From: Gammaproteobacteria bacterium
GTDB taxonomy: Bacteria; Pseudomonadota; Gammaproteobacteria; Steroidobacterales; Woeseiaceae
Direction: 5' to 3'
Assembly (NCBI GenBank): GCA_029863305.1
Contig: JAOTVR010000023.1
Span: forward strand, 1 to 43,928
Length of the DNA: 43,928 nucleotides
A model generated the notes under the pieces. The model was not told where the DNA came from. It ran no database searches and saw nothing but the letters and a program-made list of their open reading frames with translations. The stretch's first letter is position 1. Every line of letters starts with the position of its first letter. Both the position numbers and the translations under genes were made by a program. Shown piece after piece: positions 28,357-43,928 of the stretch.

Positions 28357-28512
28357 CGTTCGGCTCCTTCAGTTGGTTGACGTTGAATGCCAGTGCAGTC
28401 TAGATGCCGAACCCGGCAACCGCCAGCCGCGGGCTGTGCTTTCGTGGCATTGCGGTCAGCCAACCCATTTGTTATCAACACACGACGACAGACTCGATTA
28501 CGGCACGCGCCC

Positions 28513-29070
28513 ATGACGTCCGCACCGACGGTCACGACACTATTGCAGGACTGGCGCTCCGGCGACGCGGATGCGCTCGACCAGCTCGTGCCGCTGATTT
28601 ATGACGATTTGCGCCGCATCGCGGCATCCCATATGCGGAGCGAAAGATCGGGACACACTCTGCAAGCCACTGCCCTCGTAAACGAAGCGTTCACGCGGCT
28701 GGCCGAGGCAAACGCCTCGTTTCAGAACCGGGCACACTTTTTCGCGATCGCGGCACGGACGATGCGACACATTCTGACCGACTATGGCAGGGCTCGGCGC
28801 AGCCAGAAGCGCGGCGGTGGCGTGGCGCCTGTCGCGTTGGACGAAGACCGCGTCGCATCGCCGGCATCGGCGGATATCGTGGATCTCGACGACGCACTGC
28901 AAAAGCTGGCGAAGATTGATGATCGAAAGAGCGATATTCTCGTTCTGCACTTTTTCGGGGGAATGACCTATGAAGAAACGGCGGAGGCATTGAACCTGTC
29001 TGCCGCTACCGTGGATCGGGAACTGCGCCTGGCGAAAGCGTGGCTTGCCAATGAACTCGAAGACGATTGA
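28513..29070 (+). CDS. ECF sigma factor (Sigma70_ECF, TIGR02999-like)
   Basis: A 185-residue ECF sigma factor of the TIGR02999 type. Region 2: LIYDDLRRIAASHMRSERS, ATALVNEAFTRLAEAN and AHFFAIAARTMRHILTDYGR. Region 4: RKSDILVLHFFGGMTYEET with HTH AEALNLSAATVDRELRLAKA. Members of this branch are typically encoded next to a Ser/Thr kinase, as here, and are thought to be controlled through it rather than by a classical anti-sigma factor. Its end overlaps the kinase start by 20 bases. The frame is open upstream to 28387, but homology starts at 28513. Confidence 0.93.
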   Translation: MTSAPTVTTLLQDWRSGDADALDQLVPLIYDDLRRIAASHMRSERSGHTLQATALVNEAFTRLAEANASFQNRAHFFAIAARTMRHILTDYGRARRSQKRGGGVAPVALDEDRVASPASADIVDLDDALQKLAKIDDRKSDILVLHFFGGMTYEETAEALNLSAATVDRELRLAKAWLANELEDD

Positions 29071-31744
29071 GCTAAGCAAGGAGCGCTGGGCGCGCGTCGA
29101 CGAATTGTTCGACAAAGCGCAGCCGCTGGAGCGCGGCGAGCAGGCTGCCTATCTCGATTCGGCCTGCGCAGATGACGCCGAGTTGCGCGATTACCTGCTG
29201 GCCTTGTTGCAGAGCAATCCTGCAATTGACGCCACGATAGAGAACACGATCGTCGAGACGATCAATCTGGCATTCGGTGAAGGCGACCCGCACGCCGATG
29301 ATATGAAAGGCGAAATGATCGGCCCTTATCGTGTTGAACGATTGCTCGGCACGGGCGGCATGGGCGTGGTCTATCTGGCGGAAAGAGCCGATGAACAGTT
29401 TGACCAGCAGGTCGCGATCAAGCTCGGCCGGCATCGCCTCGTCGATCCACAGACCGAATTGCGCCTGCGCAGTGAGCGACAGATTCTTTCGGATCTCGAT
29501 CACCCCAACATCGCGCGCCTGCTGGACGGCGGCACGACCCGGGACGGTGTTCCCTACCTCGTCATGGAATACATCGACGGCATGCGCATCGACACCTACT
29601 GCGACCTGCACCGGCTGACAGTCGTCGAGCGCTTGCGGCTGTTCCAGACGATTTGCGCCGCGGTTCACTCCGCTCACCAGAATCTGGTCATACACCGCGA
29701 CATCAAGGCCTCCAATATCCTGGTTACCGCAGACGGCACACCGAAGCTCCTCGACTTCGGTATCGCGAAACTGACGGATGCCAGCGGCGCGGCGACCGAC
29801 GGGTTGACGCGCGAAGGTGCGGTCATCATGACGCCGGCAAACGCGGCACCCGAGCAGATACTCGGCAAAACCATTACGACGGCGACCGATATCTATGCAC
29901 TGGGCCTGCTGCTGCACACCTTATTGAGCGGCTTTCGGGCCTACGAGACAGACGACCTGACGCCGAGCGAATTCGCGCACATCGTCTGTCAGCAAGACAC
30001 GATGCGGCCCAGCCAGCGACTACAACAGGAAAGACTGATCGCCCAAACGAGCAGCGATCCCTGCGTATTACAGACGCTCGAGCGTATTGCGAGCGATCGC
30101 CGCAGCAGTCCGGAACGCCTGCAACGGCGACTGCGCGGCGATCTGGACACGATAATTCTCAACGCACTGCGCAAGGAACCGGAGCGCCGGTATCGATCGG
30201 TCAGCGCGCTCGCCGACGACATCGGCCTGCATTTGCGATGGATGCCGATCAACGCGCGCGCGGATTCGTGGCGCTACCGGACCAGCAGGTTCGTGCGTCG
30301 TCATTATGCAGCGGTGTCCGCGTCCGTTCTGGTCGTCGCCTTGCTTGCGACATTTGCAGTGCTGTTATCGATGCAGAATCGAATTGTCGTCAAGGAACGC
30401 GACACAGCGCGGGAAGTATCCCGCTTTCTCGAGGATATCTTCATGGCGCAGGATCCTGCGCAGGCGCGCGGCACGAGCATTACCGCTGAGGAAATACTTG
30501 CGTCCGGAGCCAGTCGAATCCAGGGAGACCTCACTGGCCGCCCCGAGATTCAGTCGGCATTGATGGGGACGATAGGCCGTGTCTATTTCAATCTCGGCGA
30601 GTATGAGCCGTCGCGTGAGATGCTCGAGCAGGCGTTGCAATTGCGATTGCAAACCGACGGTGAATCGCACGCAAATGTTGCAGTCGCCGGTAACGATCTG
30701 GCCGAAACCTTGATTCGTCTGGCCGATTACGAGCGTGCCGAAGATTTGCTCGACAGGTCGCTGACGATCAACCGGCAAGAAAGTGGCGCGTATTCAGCGG
30801 ACGTCGCCAAAAACCTGTTTAATCTCGCAGAGCTGCACCTGAAAACCGGCGAACTTGACGAAGCGGAGGCTTTCGCGAGTTCGAGTATTGACATCTATAC
30901 GCAGATCGACTCGGGCTACAGCATCGAGCTGGCCGAAGCAAAAAATATGCTGGCCCGGATTCTGCAGGTCCGGGGCGATCTCGACAGAACCGAGGAGTTG
31001 CTGCTCGAAGCGATAGACATCGTCACGACCAATGAAGGCGCCAATCACCCTCTGATGGCGTACTACCTGCAAAACCTGGGCGTGCTGCAGCGCTCGAAGG
31101 GTGATCTGCAGGCCGCCGAGGATACACTGGACCGGGCGATCGAGGCGACGCGACGAATTCTGGGTGACAAACACCATCTGTTGGCAGCAACGCTCATCAA
31201 CAAGGGCACTCTGCTGCACGCGCGGGGCGACTATGACAACGCGGAACGCGTCATGCGTGACGCATTGTCGCTGCACATCGAGTCGCGCGGCGCCGGTCAT
31301 CCGATGGTGGCTTACGATATGACCTTGCTTGGCATGTTGCTGCATGACCAGTCGGAACTGAGTGCGGCCGAGGATATGCTTCGCCGCGCACTCGTCATCT
31401 ACGGCGAGGCGCTCGATGACGAGCATCAATACACGGCGTCGGCCCTCACCGAGCTCGGTGCCGTACTCAACTCGGCCGGCCGCCTCGCCGAAGCGCAAAC
31501 CCTGCTCGAGCGTGCGCTGCAAATTCGTGAGAAGGACTATCCGTCCGACCACGAGCTGGTTGCCGGAACGCGGACGGAATACGCCGACACCTTGTCCCGC
31601 CAGGGCCGATTCGACGACGCCGAAGCGCTGCTGCTGCAAAGTATTGACGCACTTCGAGACAGACCCGGTCGGCGTCAGACGCGCGCAAACGAGGCATTGA
31701 CGCGTCTCAACGAGTCAGCTGGCCAGACCATAACTGACCAGTAA
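29051..31744 (+). CDS. Membrane Ser/Thr protein kinase with TPR sensor domain
   Basis: An 897-residue Hanks-type kinase. Kinase region about residues 90-370: glycine loop LLGTGGMGVVYLAER, Lys124 in QVAIKLG, HRDIKASNILV (Asp217) and DFGIAKL (Asp235), with NAAPEQILG for the APE motif. A basic stretch and a single membrane helix (about 419-440, ASVLVVALLATFAVLL) follow, then a large TPR region (about 500-880) outside the membrane, rich in repeats such as GEYEPSREMLEQALQL and GDYDNAERVMRDALSL. The first 85 residues are a helical lead-in found in this kinase group. It is co-translated with the ECF sigma factor and probably transmits an envelope signal to it. Target and signal are unknown. Confidence 0.93.
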   Translation: MNSKTIELSKERWARVDELFDKAQPLERGEQAAYLDSACADDAELRDYLLALLQSNPAIDATIENTIVETINLAFGEGDPHADDMKGEMIGPYRVERLLGTGGMGVVYLAERADEQFDQQVAIKLGRHRLVDPQTELRLRSERQILSDLDHPNIARLLDGGTTRDGVPYLVMEYIDGMRIDTYCDLHRLTVVERLRLFQTICAAVHSAHQNLVIHRDIKASNILVTADGTPKLLDFGIAKLTDASGAATDGLTREGAVIMTPANAAPEQILGKTITTATDIYALGLLLHTLLSGFRAYETDDLTPSEFAHIVCQQDTMRPSQRLQQERLIAQTSSDPCVLQTLERIASDRRSSPERLQRRLRGDLDTIILNALRKEPERRYRSVSALADDIGLHLRWMPINARADSWRYRTSRFVRRHYAAVSASVLVVALLATFAVLLSMQNRIVVKERDTAREVSRFLEDIFMAQDPAQARGTSITAEEILASGASRIQGDLTGRPEIQSALMGTIGRVYFNLGEYEPSREMLEQALQLRLQTDGESHANVAVAGNDLAETLIRLADYERAEDLLDRSLTINRQESGAYSADVAKNLFNLAELHLKTGELDEAEAFASSSIDIYTQIDSGYSIELAEAKNMLARILQVRGDLDRTEELLLEAIDIVTTNEGANHPLMAYYLQNLGVLQRSKGDLQAAEDTLDRAIEATRRILGDKHHLLAATLINKGTLLHARGDYDNAERVMRDALSLHIESRGAGHPMVAYDMTLLGMLLHDQSELSAAEDMLRRALVIYGEALDDEHQYTASALTELGAVLNSAGRLAEAQTLLERALQIREKDYPSDHELVAGTRTEYADTLSRQGRFDDAEALLLQSIDALRDRPGRRQTRANEALTRLNESAGQTITDQ

Positions 31745-31863: not shown

Positions 31864-33438
31864 TTAGTCGCGACTCCTGGCCCAGTCCAGGACTGTGTCT
31901 ACGTGGCGCCGCAATTGCGGGTCGAGATATGAGAAGTTGATGCCTCGATCGGTTATTTCCCAGTAGTGGGGCCGTTCCTCAGACATCAACATTTCGCGCA
32001 CTTGCTTGACTCGCTCCGGCTTCTCGACCATCAAATCATTCGCGATGCGCCGGGCCCTCGACTCGTCGCCGCGGTCAAGAAAGAAAGCGGCCAGCTGGAT
32101 TTGCGCTCGCCGGATTCCCAGTAGGCTCACCTCGTCCGACTCCTTCTTGATTTCGCGATCCAGTTCAAGGATCAGATCAAGCAAGTCGTCTACCTGAGTA
32201 GATTTCTGTCGGGCGGCATCCTCGATTAATCGACCGATGTCATACGCGGCAACCTCGAGCAGAAATGGCATATTAAGAGTGAAACCGAGCTGACCATAGA
32301 ATTGGAAATGCAGCGCAATTTCACGAACCGCGTTCTCCTGCCCGGACCTCAGCAGTTCCTCTGCCATTTGTCGGTATTGGTTCATGATGTAGTAGCAGGT
32401 TCGCTGATCATTTTTGTTGATCGTGGCGCGCAGATAGCTGTTAAAGCACCGGATACACAGTTCAACGACAGCCGTCCTGGTCGTTGCGGCCGCACTGCCA
32501 ATGCGATTCGTGTTGATTGCGATCAGATTGGTCATGTCGCGGGAACTGGAACTGCCAATGCTCACGAGACTCAGGTATTGCCGCATAACTTTGACATCCA
32601 GCCAGGTACCGGATTTTTCGATCTCACTGATTGAAGAGTCGCTCAGCGACACGAAATCAGGATCTCTCGCAACACACGGACTCACTAAGAACCAATTCTT
32701 TGGGAGGTTCGGAATGTGTTCCTGGTAGTCGGTAAGCAACTCGCACAAAGCGTTGATGCTTTTCATGGCCACAGCGCGGTCGCCTGTCTCCGAGGCGCGC
32801 CGCGCGATATCCTGCAACTCGTCAACCCGATTCAGCATGTAGTTTTTTGTCGGCTCATTGTCGTCGTTACCAACAGAATCAAACCGCCTTACTGCGGCGC
32901 CCTTGATCTTCTCGATAACGCTATCCGGCGAGAGGAACGACAGTACAAAAGCAAAATACGGCAGTAGCAGAGTCAGGGAAATGGTGACCATCGCCATACT
33001 GATCAGCAATCCGGCATTCGCTATAACCGCCTGGGTGCTGTCCCCGCCAACAAAAAGAGAATTCCAAATGCTGTGAATCGTAGCGACGACAAAAAAGCTC
33101 ATTACGAAAATGTTCACGGGCTCGCGAACGAACATTGTCGTAATTCTGTGGCTGTACCGGTTCGCTGCCAATTCGACAACGATAGCCACGACTGTGATCG
33201 CGATCGCAAGCACAGCGGCCAGCAGTTCCGCGGCATTTGTGAGCACCTCGAAAGTAACATCGGGCCCGAGGCTTGTGAGCCGCTCAACCAAACCGCGCTC
33301 CGGTCCGGCAAACACGCCTTCAAGGGCCAGCGAGATCAGGAAAACCAGCAGCGTGACCACGGATATGCCGAAAAAAGCCACAGCCGCGCCGTACAGTGCC
33401 CGGGAATGAACGGTTTGTTTAGTATTCTTATTGAACAT
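31864..33438 (-). CDS. DUF2254-like membrane protein
   Basis: A 524-residue protein. Four membrane helices fill the first 165 residues (VAFFGISVVTLLVFLISLAL, LLAAVLAIAITVVAIVVEL, VNIFVMSFFVVATIHSIW, LLISMAMVTISLTLLLPYFA). The junction ANRYSHRITTMFVREPVNIF resembles the DUF2254 family. The remaining 360 residues are cytoplasmic and helix-rich, longer than in typical DUF2254 proteins, with TPR-like helices near the end. No Shine-Dalgarno site is obvious. It is divergent from the S41 gene with only 77 bases between, so the two may share control. Function unknown. Confidence 0.6.
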   Translation of the reverse strand: MFNKNTKQTVHSRALYGAAVAFFGISVVTLLVFLISLALEGVFAGPERGLVERLTSLGPDVTFEVLTNAAELLAAVLAIAITVVAIVVELAANRYSHRITTMFVREPVNIFVMSFFVVATIHSIWNSLFVGGDSTQAVIANAGLLISMAMVTISLTLLLPYFAFVLSFLSPDSVIEKIKGAAVRRFDSVGNDDNEPTKNYMLNRVDELQDIARRASETGDRAVAMKSINALCELLTDYQEHIPNLPKNWFLVSPCVARDPDFVSLSDSSISEIEKSGTWLDVKVMRQYLSLVSIGSSSSRDMTNLIAINTNRIGSAAATTRTAVVELCIRCFNSYLRATINKNDQRTCYYIMNQYRQMAEELLRSGQENAVREIALHFQFYGQLGFTLNMPFLLEVAAYDIGRLIEDAARQKSTQVDDLLDLILELDREIKKESDEVSLLGIRRAQIQLAAFFLDRGDESRARRIANDLMVEKPERVKQVREMLMSEERPHYWEITDRGINFSYLDPQLRRHVDTVLDWARSRD

Positions 33439-33515: not shown

Positions 33516-35489
33516 ATGCCAAATTCAAAAACGAAACTAAAACCATCATTCGTAACGAATGCGCACAAAGCGGTCCGCTCGAGCGTTGGCGCAAGTATTG
33601 ACGTGCCAACGTTTCTTGAAAAATGTGCGACACTGACGCTCGCGGCACGCAAGACGATCGTCGAGCAAGCGCTGCTCGTATTGGCGGAAAACTACGTGCA
33701 TCTGCCATACAAGCAGGCAATGCACGGCGTCAACGCCTTGCAGAGGCTTAAGCTACTGCAACACAAACTGCAACAGAGCAAGCAGTCACAGCTTTCCCAC
33801 CCTGTCGAATTTCACAGGGAGATACTGGAGATCTTTAACTCGTTACACGATATGCATACAGATTACTTTCTGCCCGATCCTTTTCGGCAGATGACCGCTT
33901 ACCTGCCGTTCCAGATCGAGGAGTGCTATGACGCTGGCAAATCCCGGCATTACCTGGTAACGAAATTACTACATGGTTTCGACCACAAGACATTCCGGCC
34001 GGGCGCGGAAGTCCTGACATGGAACGGAGTACCGATGGAGCGCGCTGTCGCCATCAGCGCCGCCGCAAATGCCGGAAGTAACGCCGCCGCCCGACGCGCT
34101 CGCGGTATTGATGCGATGACATTACGCCCACTGATTGCGCTGTTGCCGCCGGACGAAGAACGAGTCGTTGCCCAGTATTGCGACAACCAGGGTAGAAAGC
34201 ACGAAATTCGGATTGAGTGGCAAATATTTGCACCGCCCGCGGAAACCGACAAAGTCGACCACGACAAGCCGTCAGCGTCTTCGTCGTCAATCGGTCTCGA
34301 CCTCACCGCAGATCACATGCGGCTGGCGCGAAAAGTACTGTTTGCTCCAGAGGTAGTTGCCGCCGAGGCGGTAGCATCGTCGTCGCAAAGCGGCCGCGCT
34401 CAGGTACAAACCGAGGCGCTGGAAACGTGCATGCCAAAAGTTTTCATGGCGAGGCCGGTAACAACACCACACGGTGAATTTGCGTACATTCGCGTCAGAA
34501 CTTTTGCCACAGAGAACCCGGACGCGTTCGTCGATGAGTTCCTGAGGCTGTTGGAACAGTTGCCGAAACGGGGCCTCGCCATAGACGTGCGAAATAATGG
34601 CGGCGGCAGCCTGCAGGCTGCCGAACGGCTGTTGCAATTGTTGACGCCACGAGAGGTACATCCACAATCGCTTCAGTTTCGCAATACACCTTTGAACTTG
34701 CGAATATGTCAGCGCCATAAGAACGGCGAACTCGGATTCGACTTATCGCCGTGGATACCATCAATGCTTCGCGCGATCGAAACTGGCGCCGTCTATTCGA
34801 GCGCATATCCGCTCACTTCGCGAGAATCCGCCAACGCAATAGGACAGCGCTACCACGGACCGGTTGCGCTCATTACGGATGCGAGATGCTATAGCGCTAC
34901 GGATGCATTCGCCTCGGGCTTTCACGATCACCAGATTGGACCGATCATCGGCGTTGACCACAATACAGGCGCGGGCGGCGCCAATGTCTGGACGCAGGAG
35001 TTTCTCAGGCAATCGTTGATCAAGCCCGGGCTGCGGGATCCGGAATCTCCATACAAAAAACTACCCGGAAATGCAGCATTACGCGCAGCAATGCGACGAA
35101 CGCTTCGCGTCGGCAAACAACACGGCACACCGGTCGAAGACCTTGGCGTGACCCCTGATCACTACCACCCGATGACAAGGAATGATCTCCTTGAATCCAA
35201 TGTTGATCTAATCGCAGCGGTAGCCAAGCGAATCGACCGAATGCCTAAACGCTTGTTGGAGTGCAGTGTGTCAGCCTCCGGAGAATTGCTGGACCTGAAA
35301 TTTGCAACGTTTGGGCTCGATCGGCTCGACATCTACGTTGACGGTCGCCCGTTTGCTTCTCCGGATGTTGGCGATGGCGAGTCCGACTGCCAAATTAGCA
35401 GACCGCCAAACGCCCAGTCCCTGGATATTCGGGGCTTCGTAAAAGGAACGCACGTTGCATCGAGACGCATTTCCCTAAGCGGCGACTGA
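33516..35489 (+). CDS. Cytoplasmic S41 family peptidase with PDZ-like segment
   Basis: A 657-residue protein with no signal peptide. An N-terminal helical domain (about 1-110) precedes a PDZ-like stretch (GAEVLTWNGVPMERAVAIS, about 158-176) and the S41 core: GEFAYIRVRTFATENPDAFV, IDVRNNGGGSLQAAERLLQL and the nucleophile strand ARCYSATDAFASGFHDH. After it comes GVDHNTGAGGANVW; the Lys of CtpA-type S41 enzymes is missing, so any activity would use the tricorn/IRBP-like arrangement. A small beta domain forms the C-terminus. Its TGA overlaps the ATG of the cyclase-like gene (TGATG). Cytoplasmic S41 proteins are unusual; a role in processing a partner protein or peptide is inferred. Confidence 0.78.
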   Translation: MPNSKTKLKPSFVTNAHKAVRSSVGASIDVPTFLEKCATLTLAARKTIVEQALLVLAENYVHLPYKQAMHGVNALQRLKLLQHKLQQSKQSQLSHPVEFHREILEIFNSLHDMHTDYFLPDPFRQMTAYLPFQIEECYDAGKSRHYLVTKLLHGFDHKTFRPGAEVLTWNGVPMERAVAISAAANAGSNAAARRARGIDAMTLRPLIALLPPDEERVVAQYCDNQGRKHEIRIEWQIFAPPAETDKVDHDKPSASSSSIGLDLTADHMRLARKVLFAPEVVAAEAVASSSQSGRAQVQTEALETCMPKVFMARPVTTPHGEFAYIRVRTFATENPDAFVDEFLRLLEQLPKRGLAIDVRNNGGGSLQAAERLLQLLTPREVHPQSLQFRNTPLNLRICQRHKNGELGFDLSPWIPSMLRAIETGAVYSSAYPLTSRESANAIGQRYHGPVALITDARCYSATDAFASGFHDHQIGPIIGVDHNTGAGGANVWTQEFLRQSLIKPGLRDPESPYKKLPGNAALRAAMRRTLRVGKQHGTPVEDLGVTPDHYHPMTRNDLLESNVDLIAAVAKRIDRMPKRLLECSVSASGELLDLKFATFGLDRLDIYVDGRPFASPDVGDGESDCQISRPPNAQSLDIRGFVKGTHVASRRISLSGD

Positions 35490-38400
35490 TGAACGTTGGC
35501 GAAAAGCTGGCCAGGTTTGCACCCCAGGTACAGCTTAGAGATGTACTGGCCGGGTTCGACGATGGCACAAAGCAAATGCCCTCGCAGGAATCAGGGCATG
35601 CCGCACTTTTGTTTATTGATTTGAGCGGTTTCACAGCGCTAACAGAGCGATCCGCAGCACGCGGACGCCGCGGCGCCGAAAATCTCACCGAGATTATTAA
35701 TCAATATTTCGGTAAAGCAACGGATCTCATCCTCGATCACGGAGGAGATATACTTTTTTACGCCGGCGATTCGATCCTCGCCATCTGGCCTGCTGAAAAG
35801 AGCGAATCATTGGCCGAGGCCGCGCAAATGGCTGCGGGCTGCGCACTGGAAATTCAAGTGCATGTCAGCGATCAAGCAAAGACCGAGAGTGATTCGCTGA
35901 GGTTTCGCGCCTCCGTCACTTCAGGGGCTGTCTCTTTTCTGCAGGTCGGTGGAGCTCATGACATATGGCAGTTTCTCGTGTCGGGAAAACCTGTTGTGGA
36001 GATCGCAGAAAATGATCGATGCACCCGTCCCGGTGAAGTAGTTGTCACACAATCAACGTGGCAGCTAATCGATAAGGGCTTTGTCGGGAATGAGATCGAC
36101 CAGGGACGCCGCAAACTGGTTTCCCGACGCAATGACGTTACGGCGCGCTCACCGGATCCTGTGCAAGTACCCATCGGAGCTGAAACCGTACTCGTCGGTC
36201 TTGTGCCTTCTGTCGTCGCCACACGAACCAGGGCCGGCTACGACGAATGGCTTGCCGAGTTTCGAAACATCGTGGTCTTATTCATCAACTTCGTCGGGCT
36301 GGATCAGACTGAAACCGACCTGCTGGACAAACTCCAGCCGATTGTGAAATACCTGCAGGAAATCATCACCGGACTTGAAGGTACGGTATACCAGCTCCTC
36401 ATGGATGATAAGGGCGCGTCGATGGTTGTGGGTTTTGGGTTGCCGCCGTTCGCGCATGAGGATGATGCCCGCCGCGCCACACTGGCTGCCATCGAGATTC
36501 GCGAGTGGCTTGCCAATCAAGGGGTAGAAGCGTCAATAGGTATTGCCAGCGGGCCGCTCTACTGCGGCATATACGGGACAGAGCGCCGGCAGCAGTACAC
36601 GATTGCCGGAAGCGCTATAAACCTCGCCGCCCGGCTCATGCAAAAAGCGGATGGGCGAATTCTGTGTGACACGTCGGTCGCCAGTCGAGCCCAAGTCAAT
36701 AATGCTTTCGAGCCTTTGCATCCAATCACGATGAAGGGCCACAGCAGCCCGACATCAGTATTCCGCGTTCAAACACCGGACGAAAATACAACCACAGCCA
36801 TCACCCGGCAAACCACCAACATCGCGATTTTTGGCAGAGACGAGGAAACAGCGAAGATCGAGCAGGCGTTGCGTGAAGCGCAGAACGAGGGTGCCGGCAG
36901 CCTGCTGCTACTCGAGGGCGACGCCGGTATCGGTAAATCGACACTCATGGAATACGCTGCGTCGCGTGCCCAGGACCTCAATATCGCCGCACTCAAAGGC
37001 GGTGCCGACGCGATTCGCAAAGATTCCTCATTTTATCCCTGGCGCCAGGTTTTTGCGACCCTGCTTGAACTCGAGCCGGGCTCGGAAAATACGGAGGAGA
37101 TGACATCACGTCTTATTCAATCGCTGCCGAAAGAAAGACGCCAACTCGCACCATTATTGAGCGCGGTTCTTCCATACGAAATTCCGGATAACGACGTTAC
37201 CAAGCGAATGAGCGAAGAAGTACGGGCGGACAACACTCTGAGCCTTTTGCTTGAAGTGTTGGGCACGGCTACCGAAAACGGTTCGATCGGAATCTTTCTG
37301 GAGGATGCCCACTGGTTCGATTCGGCTTCCTGGAAACTTATTTCGCTCGTGGCGCGCAGCAATGACTCGATTCTGTTTGTCATCAGCACTCGACCGACGG
37401 AAGTCGAGCATCCGCTGTTGTCGTCGCTGTTCGAACTGGGTGGCGCGAATAAACTTCACGTTTCCCCGCTATCGGCACCAGCCACCGTTGATCTTGTTTG
37501 CCATCGCCTTGGCGTAGATTCCACGCCTGAGTCGGTGTCCGAGTTTGTGATGGAGAAAGCGGGCGGAAACCCGTTTTTCAGCGAGGAACTCGCCTACGCA
37601 TTACTCGAATCCGGAGTCATCACTATCGCCGATCGTGTTTGCGAGCTGGCAGATCCTGATACAGACCCGGGCAAATCGATGGCGAACATGCTGGCTGACA
37701 AAGGACTGCCCGACACGATCCAGGGAATAGTTACATCGCGCATCGATCGGCTGTCCGAGCAACTCCAATTCGCCATCAAAGTTGCAAGCGCCATCGGTGT
37801 CAGGTTCACAGTCGACTCCCTGGTTGCGGTTTACCCGGAAGCTACAAGTAAGAAGAGCATGCTGAGGTGGCTCGATGAACTGAGCGAAGGGGATTTCATT
37901 GATGTCGACAGTGAAAACAGTGGTGTTTTCGAATTTCGACATGTCATTACGCGCGACGTTGCTTATCACTCGATGTTGTTTTCACAGCGAAGGAAGCTTC
38001 ATCGCAGAATCGCATCGTGGTTCGAAGAACAATCGAACTCCACAAGCGAGTCGATGCAACCGGTACTCGCTCATCACTGGCAGCATGCAGACGAATGGGA
38101 GAGAGCCACCAGCTACCTGACCAGGGCGGGCGATAATGCAATGCGGAACTTCTCAAACAGGGAAGCAATATCGTTCTATTCCGATGCGCTTGAAATCAGC
38201 AACAAAGCCTCTGAAGACGGCCAGGGCTTCGCGACCACAGATGATCGGAGACACTGGAAACTTTCGATTGGCCGCGCGCATTTGAAGGAGTCGGAATACC
38301 AGACCGGTCGAACTCATATCGAGCAGGGACTCAGCCTTGCAGGAATCGAGATGAAGAAGGGCAAGTTGCGCCCGATTTTTGGCCTGTTCTCGCAGATGGG

Positions 38401-39598
38401 CCGCCAGGTTCTGCATCGCTACAGGGCCGGCCGGATTGTTGGCAGCAGGCACGATGATCGAAAAAGCCTGCTCGAGCAGGCGCGTGCGCTTGAGGGGCTG
38501 GTCGAAGCGTATTTTGTCGCCAATGAGAATATCCGCTGTCTCCATTGTGCGTTTCAGTCCCTTAATATCGCGGAACTTGCCGGTCCGTCCCCGGAGCTTG
38601 CTCGCGGTTACGCCTCCGTAGGCGCAATCATGGGTTTCATTCCTTTGCACGGCATCGCAAAAAAGTATTGCGATCGGGCTATGGACGCTGCTGAGAAGAC
38701 CGATGAACCGGAGACCCTGGCCTGGGTGTCATTGGCTTATGGCGTGTACGAAGCCGGAGCCGGCAATCTGGACGAGGCCAGGCGGCACCTGTTCAATACA
38801 ACCGCCGTAGCGAAAAAAAGAGGAGACCGACGACGTTGGGACGACGGCACGCAAAACCTCGCGGCGACCGCCTATATTCGCGGAGAATTGGACAAGTCCC
38901 TTGAATTCGGAAGCGATCTCTTTTCTTCGGCGGAGCGTCGCGGAGACAAAAAAGATCAGGCCGAAGCACTTCGCTGGATTATTCGAGTGCGCCTTGCCCG
39001 GCGCAATCTGGAGAAATTGCCGGAACTGATTCAGCGATTTCTCGATCTGCGTCAGGGAGAATCCGGGATTGGCGAGAAGTACAGCGCCGACGTCCGCGTG
39101 GCACAGGCGGATTTTGTGTATGCCGCCGGCGATCTGGCAAAGGCGCAAGCGCTTGCCGATGACGCAATGACGTTAGTCGGTCGCGGGCCCTCAAACTTCT
39201 ACGATGTGTTCGTTGAGCAGTCTGCATTGGCTGACATCTATTACGCTCTTTTCAGCAACGCAACATCAAATAAGAATTTCTCCCAGCTCAATTCACTGGT
39301 CAATGTCATCAAGCGGCATGCACGCGTATTCGCCGTGGCCGAACCCACGGCCCGGTATTGGGACGGAGTGATTAAGCGACTCAGAGGACGTCACAAGGCT
39401 GCCAGGGCTGCGCTTGAATCCGCCATTGACTGTGCGGAGCGCATGAAAATGCCAATCCAGGAAGCAAGAATTCGTGCGGAGCTGGCGAAAAACAAGACCA
39501 TTTCTGAGAGCGCCAGAGAACGTCACCTGGCCGGTGCGGTGAAAATCTTGTCTGCCGCACGCGCACGGTCTGATCTCGCAAGGATTGACGCTAATTGA
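35489..39598 (+). CDS. Soluble-adenylyl-cyclase-like protein: two cyclase domains, ATPase, TPR
   Basis: A 1369-residue protein with the architecture of mammalian soluble adenylyl cyclase. C1 (about 38-195) has metal-binding Asp44 in LFIDLSGFTAL and Asp94 in GGDILFYAGDSILAIW. C2 (about 258-425) lacks the metal Asp (Asn267 in VLFINFVGL, as in sAC) but keeps Asn378 and Arg382 of YTIAGSAINLAARLM. The STAND/AAA-type ATPase follows, with Walker A GDAGIGKST (477-485) and Walker B IFLEDAHW (602-609), then a TPR-like tail to the end. The two cyclase halves could form one composite site. The adenine Lys of C2 is Gln302, and bicarbonate-site residues are changed. Overlaps the S41 gene by one base. Confidence 0.88.
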   Translation: MNVGEKLARFAPQVQLRDVLAGFDDGTKQMPSQESGHAALLFIDLSGFTALTERSAARGRRGAENLTEIINQYFGKATDLILDHGGDILFYAGDSILAIWPAEKSESLAEAAQMAAGCALEIQVHVSDQAKTESDSLRFRASVTSGAVSFLQVGGAHDIWQFLVSGKPVVEIAENDRCTRPGEVVVTQSTWQLIDKGFVGNEIDQGRRKLVSRRNDVTARSPDPVQVPIGAETVLVGLVPSVVATRTRAGYDEWLAEFRNIVVLFINFVGLDQTETDLLDKLQPIVKYLQEIITGLEGTVYQLLMDDKGASMVVGFGLPPFAHEDDARRATLAAIEIREWLANQGVEASIGIASGPLYCGIYGTERRQQYTIAGSAINLAARLMQKADGRILCDTSVASRAQVNNAFEPLHPITMKGHSSPTSVFRVQTPDENTTTAITRQTTNIAIFGRDEETAKIEQALREAQNEGAGSLLLLEGDAGIGKSTLMEYAASRAQDLNIAALKGGADAIRKDSSFYPWRQVFATLLELEPGSENTEEMTSRLIQSLPKERRQLAPLLSAVLPYEIPDNDVTKRMSEEVRADNTLSLLLEVLGTATENGSIGIFLEDAHWFDSASWKLISLVARSNDSILFVISTRPTEVEHPLLSSLFELGGANKLHVSPLSAPATVDLVCHRLGVDSTPESVSEFVMEKAGGNPFFSEELAYALLESGVITIADRVCELADPDTDPGKSMANMLADKGLPDTIQGIVTSRIDRLSEQLQFAIKVASAIGVRFTVDSLVAVYPEATSKKSMLRWLDELSEGDFIDVDSENSGVFEFRHVITRDVAYHSMLFSQRRKLHRRIASWFEEQSNSTSESMQPVLAHHWQHADEWERATSYLTRAGDNAMRNFSNREAISFYSDALEISNKASEDGQGFATTDDRRHWKLSIGRAHLKESEYQTGRTHIEQGLSLAGIEMKKGKLRPIFGLFSQMGRQVLHRYRAGRIVGSRHDDRKSLLEQARALEGLVEAYFVANENIRCLHCAFQSLNIAELAGPSPELARGYASVGAIMGFIPLHGIAKKYCDRAMDAAEKTDEPETLAWVSLAYGVYEAGAGNLDEARRHLFNTTAVAKKRGDRRRWDDGTQNLAATAYIRGELDKSLEFGSDLFSSAERRGDKKDQAEALRWIIRVRLARRNLEKLPELIQRFLDLRQGESGIGEKYSADVRVAQADFVYAAGDLAKAQALADDAMTLVGRGPSNFYDVFVEQSALADIYYALFSNATSNKNFSQLNSLVNVIKRHARVFAVAEPTARYWDGVIKRLRGRHKAARAALESAIDCAERMKMPIQEARIRAELAKNKTISESARERHLAGAVKILSAARARSDLARIDAN

Positions 39599-39599
39599 T

Positions 39600-40541
39600 A
39601 TGAGCGGAGAGACCCTTGCATATGACGCGGCCGCAAGCGAGTGCATTGATCGTGCTCTTGAAAGACTATCTGCGGAAATTCGTGATCGAACGCCGAACAT
39701 GGCGCCTGCCGTGAGCAACTGGATGGCGTCTCTTTCACACTCGCGTACCCCCGCCGACTACTTCAAGGACATTCGCGGATTCCCGATGCTGCGTCTGCCC
39801 CGATGGCTGGCTGAATCAACCGATGCAAATGAAGACGTAGATTTTCAGGACGGCCTTGCATACTCGACAGTGAGCGGCTACTACTTCGTTCGCCTTATTG
39901 ACAACCTTATGGACAATCAGGCCACGAACGAAAAAGCGATTCTCTCAATTAGTGCTTTGTTTCACACAGAGTTTCAGCGCATATACCAGGAGTACTTCGC
40001 GGCGACGCACCCTTTCTGGGAAATATATCGACGTGAATGGGCGCGCGGATTCGATTCGGCCGCTGCAGAAGCCAGCGCCACTGACATAGACGAAGATCGG
40101 TTCTACCAATTGTCCGCGACTAAAACTTGCGCCGGCAAGATTCCCCTCGCCGCGACTGCATTTCATTTCTCAGCGGAGGACAGGCTCCCTGAGTGGAACA
40201 ATTTTTGCGATGCGCTTAGTGCATGGATACAAATGCGGGACGATATGTCCGACTGGTATCGCGACCACCGATGCGGCGCAAAGACATTTTTTCTTTCCAG
40301 GAGCAATGCGAATCGCTTGCCCGACGAGACACTGCTTGCATGGCTCGGCCGTGAAGGCGCGAGCTGGGGCACAGAGCAGCTACAGGGTATGCATCAGAAA
40401 GTCCGCAAGGCCGGAGCGCCGCTTAACTCGCAATCGTTGGACCGCTACGTGGATGAGCTCGAATCCTGGATGGTCACGTGGACAAGTAACTTTGGGCGTG
40501 CTATAGCGGAATTGGCGAAAGTTGCAAAGGCATTGGCCTGA
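39600..40541 (+). CDS. Divergent class I isoprenoid synthase
   Basis: A 313-residue helical protein with the motif order of class I isoprenoid enzymes. First acidic motif Asp101-Asp105 is in FVRLIDNLMDNQ; then SATKTCAGKIPLA, like the KT motif of trans-prenyl diphosphate synthases; the second acidic motif is QMRDDMSDWYRD (Asp214, Asp215, Asp218), followed by GAKTFFL in place of the usual GK. Sequence around these motifs is far from known prenyl synthases or squalene/phytoene synthases, so the product could be a prenyl diphosphate or a terpene. The ATG is one base after the cyclase-like gene stop; a TTG at 39585 is less likely. Confidence 0.72.
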   Translation: MSGETLAYDAAASECIDRALERLSAEIRDRTPNMAPAVSNWMASLSHSRTPADYFKDIRGFPMLRLPRWLAESTDANEDVDFQDGLAYSTVSGYYFVRLIDNLMDNQATNEKAILSISALFHTEFQRIYQEYFAATHPFWEIYRREWARGFDSAAAEASATDIDEDRFYQLSATKTCAGKIPLAATAFHFSAEDRLPEWNNFCDALSAWIQMRDDMSDWYRDHRCGAKTFFLSRSNANRLPDETLLAWLGREGASWGTEQLQGMHQKVRKAGAPLNSQSLDRYVDELESWMVTWTSNFGRAIAELAKVAKALA

Positions 40542-40633
40542 GCAAGCAAATTACGGAAAACTGGTCTATTATGAATCGCGCTCTGTGTGATTAATGACAA
40601 AACAGCCGGAACACGGTTACCAAGGGAAATTTT

Positions 40634-40831
40634 ATGAAATTTGAAACAATGATCGATAAAGTAATGAACGACCCAAGCTTTCGTGAGGGCATCAGGACGG
40701 ATCCCGAAGGGACGCTAAAAGCGCACAATTTCGATGCGCACCCTGAGAAAGTCGAGGCACTGAAGAACGTTGACTGGAGTTCGCTCGACAAGGTACGAGA
40801 TTCGTTCGGGGACGATGACAGCATCTGCTAG
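40634..40831 (+). CDS. 65-residue Os1348/NHLP-like peptide, candidate RiPP precursor
   Basis: A small protein with a good AGGGA ribosome site and an ATG. The body reads like the short Os1348/NHLP-type leader family: MNDPSFREGIRTDPEGTLKA, then HNFDAHPEKVEALKNVDW, matching the DPxFRxxxxxDPxxxLxxxxF...EKVEAL pattern. After a helix it ends GDDDSIC, with the only cysteine as the last residue. It lies 92 bases after the isoprenoid synthase gene and 12 before the membrane cyclase gene, inside the operon. It may be a modified peptide substrate or a carrier/adaptor; there is no recognisable RiPP-modifying enzyme such as YcaO or LanM nearby. Confidence 0.65.
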   Translation: MKFETMIDKVMNDPSFREGIRTDPEGTLKAHNFDAHPEKVEALKNVDWSSLDKVRDSFGDDDSIC

Positions 40832-40843
40832 ATACTAAGCGGA

Positions 40844-41530
40844 ATGGAACACCCGAGAGGCGAGTTATTCACATTAGCTGATGTTGCAGCACTCGGCATC
40901 GCCGGCGATGTCCTGTGGCTGTTCGCGTATGCGATGATCATATGGGTGGGGTTTAAAAATAAGACCTACGCAATTCCAATAGTCGCCGTCTGCCTGAATT
41001 TCTCGTGGGAAGCCATATTCGCGGTATTTCGCCCGCCGTTGACGTCGGCGGGCGATTTGGACTTGCCAAAACTTTCCATGTTCATCGGGTGGATGGTGAT
41101 CGATGCAATTATCGTTTACCAGTGCTTCAGATACGGTAAGCAACAGCAGACTGTCGCCGCGATCAAACGGTTCTTCAATACCGGTCTGGTCATCTGTCTG
41201 TTGATAGCAGCAGTCTGGATGTGGACATTTACTGATCAGATTCATGACAGCTCCGGTCACATGACGGCGTATACAATCAACCTGATCATGAGCATGTTGT
41301 TCGTCGATATGTTTTTCAGGAGACCGGATCTCAGAAACCACTCCTACAGCGGCGCGTGGCTAAAGTTTTTTGCCACCGGCGTCATCTCTTTGGCTAACGG
41401 AATTGTGATGGCAGAAAAGGGAGTTAATAGCTATTTCCTTTTTCTGATGATTTCCGTGTTCACATTCGACCTGCTTTACATTCTCTTGTTAAGACAAGCG
41501 AGAAACCAGACAAATCTTGTCCCGGCGTAA
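40844..41530 (+). CDS. Pyr4/PaxB-like transmembrane terpene cyclase
   Basis: A 228-residue protein with seven likely membrane helices. The pattern GIAGDVLWLFAYAMIIWVGF, NKTYAIPIVAVCLNFSWEAI and the later SVFTFDLLYILLL matches the fungal meroterpenoid/indole-diterpene cyclases Pyr4, PaxB and AndB. Two acidic residues proposed as catalytic in that family appear equivalent here: Glu56 in NFSWE and Asp209 in FTFDLLY, 153 residues apart. Family members protonate an epoxide to start polyene cyclisation. It follows the peptide gene by 12 bases, and its stop overlaps the start of the monooxygenase gene by 14 bases, supporting joint action. Confidence 0.75.
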   Translation: MEHPRGELFTLADVAALGIAGDVLWLFAYAMIIWVGFKNKTYAIPIVAVCLNFSWEAIFAVFRPPLTSAGDLDLPKLSMFIGWMVIDAIIVYQCFRYGKQQQTVAAIKRFFNTGLVICLLIAAVWMWTFTDQIHDSSGHMTAYTINLIMSMLFVDMFFRRPDLRNHSYSGAWLKFFATGVISLANGIVMAEKGVNSYFLFLMISVFTFDLLYILLLRQARNQTNLVPA

Positions 41531-42650
41531 AGCGATAGTTGTTGGTGCAGGGCCGGCCGGATCGACGATAGCGTGGCTCCTCGCAAAGCAGGGATTCCAG
41601 GTTGCTGTGTTCGACCGCCGAACCGATCCAGCTACCGACGACTACGCTTCCCGTCGCTCTCTCAATATCGCCATAGCTCAAAACAGCGTTGACTTACTGG
41701 CGAGCTCCGGTCTCGATCGCCCAATCATCGAATGCACTGTCCAGCTGTCCAAGCGAGCGATACACAGTCGGAGCGGCACCATCACGGAACAGCGGTATTC
41801 AGATCAGATCGACGGGCCATCCTCACTCCTTACACCGCCGGGCGGTGTGAGGTCGGGTTCCAGGCTCGATATTGCGAATGCTCTTTTTGAACACGTCCGT
41901 ACGAGTCAGCACGTTAGTTTCCATTTCAGTTCTGCCGTTCGCGCAATTAACGCGTCCGGCGGTACCGTCGAACTGGCAAGCGGTGAAATTATTACGGCAG
42001 ATCTGGTCGTTGGTGCCGATGGCGCCAATTCGGTCGTGCGTTCTGCAATCGAAGATCGTCACGGTACTCATACAGATAGATCGAAGTTCAACTATGCGTA
42101 CAAAGAACTCTTCGTTCCGGCCGACGTCGCACTCGATGGATCAGCGTTTCATATCTGGCCACGTCAGGGATCCCTGATCATGGCGCTTCCGAATCGGGAC
42201 GGATCTTTCCGTGCTTCATATTTCTATCCGGTCGACGGCGTGACATCCGACAGCGGGGCTGGGGTTGACCGGGCATTGGCACTGTTTCGCGAGAATCATG
42301 CGGACTGTGTACGGTACTTTCCCCAATACGCCTCGGAATTACGCGTTAATCCTGAATGTTTAATGTTTACGCTAACGACGGAGACCTGGTACGCCGAACG
42401 GGCAGCGCTTGTCGGGGACGCCTGCCACACGATCCTGCCGTTCACCGGGATGGGACTCAATCTGGCCTTCGAAGACTGCATCGTCCTGAGCCAGAATATT
42501 GAGCACTATCCGGACGTGACCGCGGCATTTGAAGCCTACGTCAATACCCGCAAGAGCATGACGGACGACGCTGCGGGCAAAGCAAAGATTCTGGGGCAGA
42601 TTGTCCTGGCACTCTTGCCAGAAGATGGTGTTTTCGGGCAGATTAACTAG
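41517..42650 (+). CDS. FAD-dependent monooxygenase (PHBH/KMO-like), candidate epoxidase
   Basis: A 377-residue group A flavin monooxygenase. All three signatures are present: FAD-binding GAGPAGSTIAWLLAKQGF near the start, the DG motif VVGADGANSVVRSA, and the GD motif ALVGDACHTILPFTGMGLNL. It resembles kynurenine 3-monooxygenase more than squalene epoxidase. Translation begins with TTG inside the last codons of the membrane cyclase gene. Next to a Pyr4-like cyclase, the likely job is epoxidation of a terminal prenyl double bond, as PaxM and Pyr5 do in fungi; that is inference from context. Confidence 0.85.
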   Translation: MSRRKAIVVGAGPAGSTIAWLLAKQGFQVAVFDRRTDPATDDYASRRSLNIAIAQNSVDLLASSGLDRPIIECTVQLSKRAIHSRSGTITEQRYSDQIDGPSSLLTPPGGVRSGSRLDIANALFEHVRTSQHVSFHFSSAVRAINASGGTVELASGEIITADLVVGADGANSVVRSAIEDRHGTHTDRSKFNYAYKELFVPADVALDGSAFHIWPRQGSLIMALPNRDGSFRASYFYPVDGVTSDSGAGVDRALALFRENHADCVRYFPQYASELRVNPECLMFTLTTETWYAERAALVGDACHTILPFTGMGLNLAFEDCIVLSQNIEHYPDVTAAFEAYVNTRKSMTDDAAGKAKILGQIVLALLPEDGVFGQIN

Positions 42651-42715
42651 ATTCGGCGCGGGAGCCTGCTATTTCGCCGAGTGAACAATCAAGATAAATA
42701 AACAGGGAGAAAGCG

Positions 42716-43366
42716 ATGCCAGCGCCCAACGCGGGACTGTTAATGAATATCGCCGTGTCGTCGGTGCCGATGGCGCCGAATCCGCAGACCGGCCAAAAAC
42801 TGGCCAATGCGATCAGCAAGGTAATAGGAAGCGCCTGCGAGGACTTTCTGCAACGGGTTTTCATGGAACCGGGGGTCCCCTGCAACGTGACGCCGCCTGC
42901 GATGGTTGGCACTGTCATCGGTATGGGACGACTGACCGGCGCCTGCCCAACCCAGGCGGAGATCAAGGCGAATGCAATGTCTGTCATCTCCTCCTCCGGG
43001 ATGTCGAGGCCCGGTCAGGACAGTTTCACCGAAACGATTTCCAAGGTAACGGCGAAGGGGCTGGCAGAATTCATGGCGGCCGCCCAGGTTCTTCCCGGCA
43101 CGCCGATCGCCGGCGGCGTTACGGCGGCTCCGGCCAGACTGACAGTCTCGCTGCCAACCGTAAAAAGCCAACTCAATATGCTGGCGCCCCCAAAGTTTCC
43201 GGGCGCGCCTGCCGTGCCAACGGTCAGCGAATTGCCGCCGGACTTCCCCCAGATCGTTGTCAAGGTCATGGTCTATGCGCTGGAACAGATGGCACAGATG
43301 GTCATGGTTGCACCGGGAATTCCGACCCCGGCAAATCTGACGGCCGGGCCCGGCAAGCTGATGTAA
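42716..43366 (+). CDS. Protein of three degenerate PGxP repeats, unknown function
   Basis: A 216-residue protein without signal peptide, preceded by GGGAG 6 bases from the ATG. I see three units, each a helix followed by a Pro/Gly loop: ISKVIGSACEDFLQRVFMEP with GVPCNVTPPAMVG; ISKVTAKGLAEFMAAAQVLP with GTPIAGGVTAAPARL; and VVKVMVYALEQMAQMVMVAP with GIPTPANLTAGPGKL. The units are about 60-85 residues apart and end in a similar xPxxL. I recognise no family. It is the last gene of the plus-strand run, 65 bases after the monooxygenase. Confidence 0.7.
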   Translation: MPAPNAGLLMNIAVSSVPMAPNPQTGQKLANAISKVIGSACEDFLQRVFMEPGVPCNVTPPAMVGTVIGMGRLTGACPTQAEIKANAMSVISSSGMSRPGQDSFTETISKVTAKGLAEFMAAAQVLPGTPIAGGVTAAPARLTVSLPTVKSQLNMLAPPKFPGAPAVPTVSELPPDFPQIVVKVMVYALEQMAQMVMVAPGIPTPANLTAGPGKLM

Positions 43367-43491: not shown

Positions 43492-43928
43492 TCACCTGTT
43501 GCCGCCGCCAACTGTCTCGTTGATCACACCGTTGAGCTTGTCGATGCACTCCAGCAAATGCCGGTCCTCCACGATCATCGGAGGGGCAAGCAGAATGTGC
43601 GGTACCGTCAGGTTGTCGAATGTAACCCCTCCCGGGTAGACGATGAGTCCATGCCGCATCGCCGCGCGGCGCAGCTTTTCGGGCAGGTCGGCGCCGTCCT
43701 TGAAACCGGCTTTGCTTGCCTTGTTTCCGACGAGTTCGAGCCCCAGCAACAGGCCGCGGCCCCGAATGTCTCCAACATTCGGATGGTCCGACAGGCGGTC
43801 GCTCAACAGGCCCCTGAGGCGCGCGCCCATCGTTTCCGTTCTCTCCAGCAAGTTGTCGCGTTCCATGACTTCCTGCACCGCCACCCCGGCAGCGCAGGCG
43901 ACAGCGTGGCCAATGTAGGTATGCCCGT
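43492..43928 (-). CDS. Class III (PLP) aminotransferase, C-terminal part
   Basis: The C-terminal 145 residues of a class III aminotransferase; the gene runs off the right edge. Visible elements are the conserved GHTYIGHAVACAAGVAVQEV after the PLP lysine region, GDIRGRGLLLGLELV and the C-terminal ILLAPPMIVEDRHLLECIDKL. These enzymes move an amino group from omega-amino acids, amines or beta-alanine to a keto acid. The N-terminal two thirds, including the PLP lysine, lie outside the window, so specificity cannot be judged. Confidence 0.9.
   Translation of the reverse strand, partial: GHTYIGHAVACAAGVAVQEVMERDNLLERTETMGARLRGLLSDRLSDHPNVGDIRGRGLLLGLELVGNKASKAGFKDGADLPEKLRRAAMRHGLIVYPGGVTFDNLTVPHILLAPPMIVEDRHLLECIDKLNGVINETVGGGNR

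Follow-up and report, generated by a model that had tools for sequence, protein, structure and literature searches.

The stretch of DNA analysed here (the window; 43,928 nucleotides of the Woeseiaceae assembly GCA_029863305.1, contig JAOTVR010000023.1) is an entire contig of a 4.25-Mb, 200-contig genome, so that the view ends at 43928. Seven consecutive open reading frames (ORFs) lie on its plus strand, here called A to G, which an initial annotation had described as a candidate seven-gene terpenoid operon. A (33516..35489) encodes a 657-aa S41 serine peptidase resembling CPAF and CtpA; B (35489..39598) a 1369-aa protein resembling soluble adenylyl cyclase (sAC), with twin class III cyclase domains, an AAA NTPase and TPR-like repeats; C (39600..40541) a 313-aa class I isoprenoid enzyme resembling trans-isoprenyl diphosphate synthases (trans-IDS); D (40634..40831) a 65-aa peptide of the Os1348 family, of the nitrile hydratase leader peptide (NHLP) type; E (40844..41530) a 228-aa Pyr4-type integral-membrane terpene cyclase; F (41517..42650) a 377-aa FAD monooxygenase (FMO) resembling kynurenine 3-monooxygenase (KMO); and G (42716..43366) a protein of 216 aa that contains three spaced repeats of the PG[VTI]P type. 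As judged from sequence, the chances seem about even that A–F form a cluster of the ribosomally synthesised and post-translationally modified peptide (RiPP) type, in which C would prenylate D, F and E would tailor the chain, A would cut and B would regulate.

Spacing, strand and base composition mark the genes A–F (33516–42650) as a single unit. A and B overlap at TGATG (35487–35491), B and C are separated by a single base (39599), C and D by 92 bp, and D and E by 12 bases (40832–40843); E and F overlap by 14 bases (41517–41530), and a gap of 65 bp precedes G. The coordinates and junctions agree with the initial annotation for all seven, but the membership of G did not hold up. The GC content at third codon positions (GC3) is 0.589–0.629 in A–F and 0.666–0.756 in ten other window genes (one-sided Mann–Whitney p = 1.2e-4, excluding the upstream neighbour 31864–33438, intermediate at 0.648, and 43492–43884, at 0.779). 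With a host-like GC3 of 0.728, resembling the other window genes, G was rejected as a member and probably lies outside the system; it is single-copy in its own genome and gave no credible family match in Pfam and NCBIfam scans. Given this GC3 contrast and the opposite-strand flanking genes (a DUF2254 protein upstream and an aminotransferase downstream), we regard A–F without G as the unit, probably acquired by horizontal transfer. Promoter and terminator scans gave results at chance level only. The same layout bears on the possibility that A–F came together by chance on an acquired fragment, C/D and E/F serving separate pathways. Although C was seen together with a Pyr4 gene only once, such an accident is very improbable, considering the single strand, the two overlaps (A/B and E/F), the intergenic gaps, which never exceed 92 bp, and the GC3 below that of the ten other window genes.

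Pfam and NCBIfam gave only weak matches for C, the best of prenyl type being PF00348 (E 0.019), and a C-family profile retrieved polyprenyl synthetases from the PDB at 4e-4 and weaker. Two aspartate motifs, D101/D105 (DNLMD) and D215/D222 (DDMSDWYRD), are invariant in 17/17 aligned family members. C keeps both Asp-rich motifs of the isoprenoid synthase superfamily, but for the class I enzyme of the initial annotation the role of scaffold synthase is less apt than that of a peptide prenyltransferase. The trans-IDS-like kind of such an enzyme is the most likely identity of C, because NHLP neighbours recur beside its relatives and its second motif is common to PalQ-like genes. This motif, QMxDDxxDWxxD, is also found in 7/9 Paenibacillus-type rows and in the relatives at loci L127, L128 and L159, with QL in place of QM at L129, and the [LH]RR that follows the first motif in 5/6 presumed canonical rows is missing at that place in the C-family rows. 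In a 34-row tree, which includes 9 of the 20 Bacilli sequences, C grouped with L127, L128, L129 and L159 (support 96/97) and the Paenibacillus-type enzymes formed a separate clade (97/97); deep branches were weak, and the two clades were not joined with support. Among 296 genomes of its own order C matched its own genome only, and among 229 genomes of its class the profile matched ten, with the window's own match strong and the other nine at 18–26 bits. Plasmid searches with C and with D (tblastn) and one scan of viral contigs with C gave no match.

Precursor-like peptides are encoded next to relatives of C in four phyla. An NHLP gene was adjacent in 30 of 42 C-family loci (L127–L142, L159, L160, L185, L187–L206 and L212–L214), as counted with a profile built from 15 peptides (11 A3 rows, one from L159 and three from Bacilli) that partly counts its own members; outside this profile, D alone as query found L137, L131 and L136, and L159 exceeded the cut-off of NF038399. 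No NHLP gene accompanied presumed ordinary prenyl synthases in 14 control loci, which offer a smaller field of view (2.0–3.5 kb each) and comprise the nine 18–26-bit matches from the window's own class and five similarly weak ones, all taken to be ordinary synthases of the prenyl or squalene/phytoene type. The suggestion in the initial annotation that a terpenoid might be tied to a ribosomal peptide is supported.

In 282 Myxococcota genomes, C matched in 15, at 16 places (L127–L142, all fetched), and at ten of these an NHLP-type peptide lies just downstream on the same strand (L130–L132, L135–L140 and L142). A class III cyclase match was also present at ten (L127, L130–L132, L135, L137–L140 and L142), as against 0/84 Pyr4 loci, a weak control because the phyla differ; full-length homologues of B stand beside C in L127 (27.7% identity) and L138 (30.4%). 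Peptidases of other classes occur near C in seven of the 16, papain-like in L127 and L138 and M50-like in L140 and L142 (over the cut-off) and in L132, L135 and L139 (under it). L127 further encodes a RiPP radical SAM methyltransferase (rSAM_ocin_1, TIGR03975, 1.7e-107, over the cut-off), and L132 has a PqqD match under the cut-off. The neighbourhood comparison suggested at the outset therefore came out in part: NHLP peptides accompany C in several phyla, cyclases and peptidases do so in many of the Myxococcota loci, but E and F travel with C nowhere else sampled. As a separate observation, a protein of 567–593 aa follows the NHLP gene in three of these loci (L131:1891-3669, L137:10444-12225 and L140:10905-12608); Pfam matched neither the L131 nor the L137 copy, and NCBIfam did not match that of L131.

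Among 179 Acidobacteriota genomes, six matched the C profile, one strongly (L159) and one moderately (L160), and NHLP adjoins C in one of these two loci. In L159, the NHLP gene abuts C (49.8 bits, over the cut-off) and is accompanied by a LanM-type dehydratase domain (4.8e-76, under the cut-off) and an ABC exporter. L160 (8828-12531) holds a 64-aa Cys-rich peptide, a 710-aa fusion of class I and squalene-cyclase-like parts and a daptide-like HExxH protease, the two enzyme matches being under the cut-off; it looks like a ChrPC-type cluster for a prenylated and cyclised peptide, in keeping with the arrangement given for ChrPC in PMC13290415. The C profile also matched 31/299 Bacilli genomes, 23 of them at 45–90 bits; these may include PalQ itself, and they are called Paenibacillus-type by analogy with the published PalQ cluster. 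Twenty of the 23 strong Bacilli matches were fetched, which are mutually related; in 19 an NHLP peptide adjoins C, and the twentieth is cut by a contig end. Four matches were obtained from 246 Actinomycetota genomes, and in each of the three loci fetched the enzyme gene is flanked by a short ORF, with the C-termini PLLPW (L212), ACSPYVTC (L213) and CGTWGC (L214). These three and the L160 peptide are different, non-NHLP ORFs, chosen by a simple composition score. In L213 (4606-6664) and L214 (4491-6309), the C-family enzyme and the Cys-ending peptide ORF are joined by a gene of the Flavoprotein family (PF02441), which follows that of the enzyme; the C-terminal cysteine of these peptides could possibly be decarboxylated or prenylated.

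PalQ of Paenibacillus alvei is a published peptide prenyltransferase of the NHLP peptide PalX (PMC10853753) and acts at the C-terminus of the peptide (PMC13290415, PMC10853753). Like C, it is an isoprenoid-synthase-superfamily enzyme encoded beside an NHLP-type precursor, and its aspartate pairs, D89/D93 and D200/D204, are 111 residues apart, compared with 114 in C (PMC10853753). C has in common with PalQ-type enzymes the two Asp-rich motifs, an adjoining NHLP precursor gene (92 bp away) and profile kinship with the Paenibacillus-type enzymes. In contrast, PalX ends in Trp and D in Cys, PalQ is accompanied by a histidine kinase and C by a sAC-like protein, and the PalQ cluster has three genes and is described, in the available portions of the source, without a Pyr4 cyclase, FMO or peptidase (PMC10853753).

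D scored 50.7 bits against NF038399 (cut-off 40), in agreement with the NHLP-like call of the initial annotation, and is the sole match to this family in its genome. The family takes its name from the NHLP-clan peptide Os1348 of Pseudomonas sp. Os17, which shares its locus with genes for an acetyltransferase, a SagB-type dehydrogenase and a gluzincin-like protein, with no isoprenoid enzyme listed in the parts of the source available (PMC7726476). Since C is better explained as a peptide prenyltransferase, the acceptor of the prenyl chain is probably the operon's own peptide D. This peptide has a single Trp (W48) and a C-terminal Cys (C65), ending ...DDDSIC with a very short segment after the NHLP domain, and Cys65 appears to hold a modest lead over Trp48 as the acceptor. 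Trp stands at or near the C-terminus in PalQ-type substrates, whereas in D it is residue 48 of 65 and the last residue is Cys. A terminal Cys is found in 5/16 peptides beside C-family genes outside Bacilli (the window, L130, L142, L213 and L214).

It is unlikely, though worth weighing, that the pathway is the same and the prenyl group goes to Trp48, by indole prenylation as in ComQ, PalQ and ChrPC, in which case either the indole or the chain may be what F oxidises. Trp is the target of all characterised trans-IDS-like peptide prenyltransferases in the accessible part of the relevant account (PMC13290415), D has exactly one Trp, and the second motif of C is common to the Paenibacillus-type enzymes, whose 18 listed partner peptides all bear Trp within the last three residues. 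However, W48 is near the NHLP fold and 17 residues short of the C-terminal residue, and the same partial source has PalQ strictly recognising the peptide terminus (PMC13290415). The Gln upstream of the second motif was tried as a marker of Trp acceptors and rejected; it is non-diagnostic because all six presumed canonical rows carry it too. Pearlin-like logic, in which D would be a scaffold, a small terpenoid amino acid would be built on its C-terminal residue and A would release the product, could draw on the very short segment after the NHLP domain, on the peptidase gene and on the variable C-terminal residue of non-Bacilli NHLP peptides (C, S, A, V, E and T), but the peptide aminoacyl-tRNA ligase was not found among A–F with Pfam or NCBIfam, and we consider this outcome improbable.

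E matched PF25129 (Pyr4-TMTC) with 63.3 bits, over the cut-off of 27, and its AlphaFold2 model has seven long helices (predicted local distance difference test, pLDDT, 93.3), which upholds the Pyr4-like cyclase named in the initial annotation. Three acids are conserved in its relatives, E56 and D87 in 80/80 and D209 in 75/75, and we take the equivalents of E56 and D209 to be the catalytic acids. Against the PDB, the model had no match at E <= 0.001; the best was cystinosin (4.1e-3), with distant SWEET- and KDEL-receptor-like matches, and no Pyr4-type entry stood among the best 50 of 166. By family and by the modelled seven-helix fold with its conserved acids, E is a Pyr4-type cyclase, cyclisation being its predicted activity. 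In its phylum, Pyr4-TMTC exceeded the cut-off in 1/398 genomes, its own; another match, L004 (G533), was dropped because it falls in a 301-aa ORF that is transporter-like by eye. A scan of genome contigs with the Pyr4 alignment found 217 relatives of E, the best 80 of which were analysed as loci together with four plasmid loci (84 in total). In the loci of the two nearest relatives (35–36% identity; Myxococcales, Polyangia), the gene preceding the cyclase encodes an MPAB/Lcp-type oxygenase (L009:6978-8213 and L010:8718-9941), possibly another oxidising partner of Pyr4-type cyclases.

The calls of an S41 peptidase and a sAC-like protein were likewise sound. A matched Pfam S41 (7.8e-19) and, under the model cut-off, NCBIfam chlamy_CPAF (6.8e-20); it carries a Ser in CYSATD (from residue 458) and a His in DMHTD (from residue 112), presumably the catalytic residues. 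The first 444 residues of B match human soluble adenylyl cyclase ADCY10 (PDB 4oya) over both cyclase domains (1.4e-44), and Pfam found AAA_16 (1.4e-17) and Guanylate_cyc (2.8e-14), with TPR models under the cut-off. B also has an AAA domain and TPR-like repeats; unlike ADCY10, it is bacterial and encoded in a biosynthetic operon. NCBIfam TOMM_kin_cyc matched at 8e-54, under its cut-off, and PADLOC returned class III cyclase matches only.

For the RiPP-type cluster proposed above, sequence candidates are present for precursor, modifying enzyme and protease. The identities of the genes, the conserved motifs, the repeated pairing of C with D and the common base composition of the unit are observed; the chemical steps, their order and the enzyme roles are those that we infer. 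D would be translated and its NHLP domain bound by C, which would transfer a C10–C20 prenyl group from the diphosphate onto D, most likely at Cys65 and otherwise at Trp48. F would then oxidise the attached chain, most simply to a terminal epoxide, and the membrane protein E would open the epoxide or protonate the chain, closing rings. A would remove the NHLP leader, and B, as a sAC-like cyclase/ATPase, might tie production to a cellular signal. The most specific version, in which C S-prenylates Cys65, the chain is epoxidised and then cyclised by E, and the product is a peptide-borne meroterpenoid made by fungal-type cyclisation under a sAC-like sensor, is put forward tentatively and with clearly less confidence than the cluster type itself.

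Several observations weigh against this scheme. On the side of the peptide and its enzyme, the AlphaFold2 model of C from one sequence has a pLDDT of 39.7, too low for use, and Pfam and NCBIfam found no RiPP recognition element (PqqD) or exporter in A–F. Six of the 16 Myxococcota loci have no NHLP neighbour (L127 and L128, both cut by contig ends, and L129, L133, L134 and L141, where the profile detects none), and no recognised RiPP gene was seen in L128 or L129, two of the four nearest relatives of C. The terminal-Cys loci L130 and L142 fall in a branch with a different second motif. Both Trp and a terminal Cys are missing from 8/10 Myxococcota NHLP partners and from the Acidobacteriota partner (L159), so that the acceptor residue is not conserved.

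Further observations of this kind concern E. The NHLP profile matched in 0/80 Pyr4 loci and in none of the four plasmid Pyr4 loci, the C-family profile in 0/84, and the 28 Pyr4-carrying genomes gave only two C-profile matches, at 40 and 19 bits; conversely, the first 12 Myxococcota C loci had no Pyr4-profile match. The link of E and F to the peptide therefore rests on this one operon, since no sampled relative pairs C with Pyr4. NF038399 matched in 11 of 33 Pyr4 genomes, once over the cut-off, with two copies (the genome of the Ktedonobacter racemifer loci); a plasmid search with E (tblastn) found six records (four Streptomyces and two Nostoc), and the four examined had no NHLP; and when Pyr4 loci were searched with each of the remaining six proteins of the operon and G (tblastn), the AAA region of B alone gave matches (L010 and L060).

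The FAD monooxygenase of the initial annotation was recovered (FAD_binding_3, 1.1e-25), and its match to the PDB kynurenine 3-monooxygenase reaches 2.3e-36; its closest solved relatives hydroxylate kynurenine. In the alignment, a retained Arg and a retained Tyr of F fall on the kynurenine-binding residues of KMO, which speaks for an aromatic substrate. FMO-like genes near Pyr4 were seen in 2/84 loci, both weak and with a KMO-leaning profile. F has 31–32% identity to a 501-aa KMO-like gene elsewhere in its genome (L162:9671-11176), so that F is an extra KMO-like copy, shorter at 377 aa than that gene, and does not qualify as a full-length KMO of the kynurenine pathway. In L162 (9671-13642), the KMO-like gene is next to apparent quinolinate/3-hydroxyanthranilate metabolism genes; this and other labels given to neighbouring genes with no family scan behind them (ribosomal, transporter-like, kynurenine-pathway) were assigned by eye. 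Of the epoxidise-and-cyclise logic of the initial annotation, the Pyr4-type cyclase and the FAD monooxygenase are supported, but epoxidation by the KMO-like F is only inferred, from the FMO that usually accompanies cyclases of this type (PMC13307353).

An alternative product is a meroterpenoid on a small-molecule acceptor: C would form a prenyl chain or hand one to a metabolite, epoxidation by F and cyclisation by E would follow, and D would serve only as a leader-like or regulatory partner. Such a route, which we think rather doubtful, matches the logic of known bacterial Pyr4 pathways, where FMOs typically form the priming epoxide according to the portions of the source at hand (PMC13307353). 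Nevertheless, no UbiA, P450 or acceptor-making gene was found in A–F by Pfam or NCBIfam, NHLP recurs beside C and not beside Pyr4, and RiPP enzymes stand beside two near relatives of C (L127 and L159).

Should the RiPP-type reading be correct, it would join ribosomal peptides with Pyr4-type meroterpenoids. Prenylated and cyclised ribosomal peptides are already known (PalQ and the ChrPC and NctPC fusions), and, in the literature as partly covered here, the two chemistries meet only via fused prenyltransferase–cyclase enzymes with other cyclase types. ChrPC and NctPC also prenylate a peptide and then cyclise the terpene, and the P domain of ChrPC is trans-IDS-like, but their cyclase is fused (that of NctPC is said to be MstE-like), as described in the accessible parts of PMC13290415, whereas the cyclase proposed here is a stand-alone membrane protein of Pyr4 type accompanied by an FMO. 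Pyr4-type cyclases likewise belong to the bacterial terpenoid pathways of XiaH, TylF, GroF and ZigF and were charted in 2026, but the portions of that account available describe no action on peptides and mention no NHLP peptide (PMC13307353). Titles and abstract openings of literature with both Pyr4 and RiPP pointed to no such bacterial cluster, and no prenylated, cyclised ribosomal peptide with a Pyr4-type cyclase was found in the literature partly covered. The pairing of an isoprenoid on a ribosomal peptide with a fungal-type membrane cyclase would thus be new, if confirmed in the laboratory. It would make a genetically encoded peptide the handle for terpene cyclisation, and C would be a candidate trans-IDS-like enzyme acting on cysteine, the characterised ones acting on tryptophan in the part of the source seen (PMC13290415). 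It would also point to a family of enzyme-plus-peptide gene pairs in Myxococcota, Acidobacteriota, Bacilli and Actinomycetota, which could be mined with a single profile. Upstream of the operon, at 28387-31744 of the window, an extracytoplasmic function (ECF) sigma factor gene is followed by one for a TPR-containing Ser/Thr kinase; the two probably make up a regulatory pair of their own.

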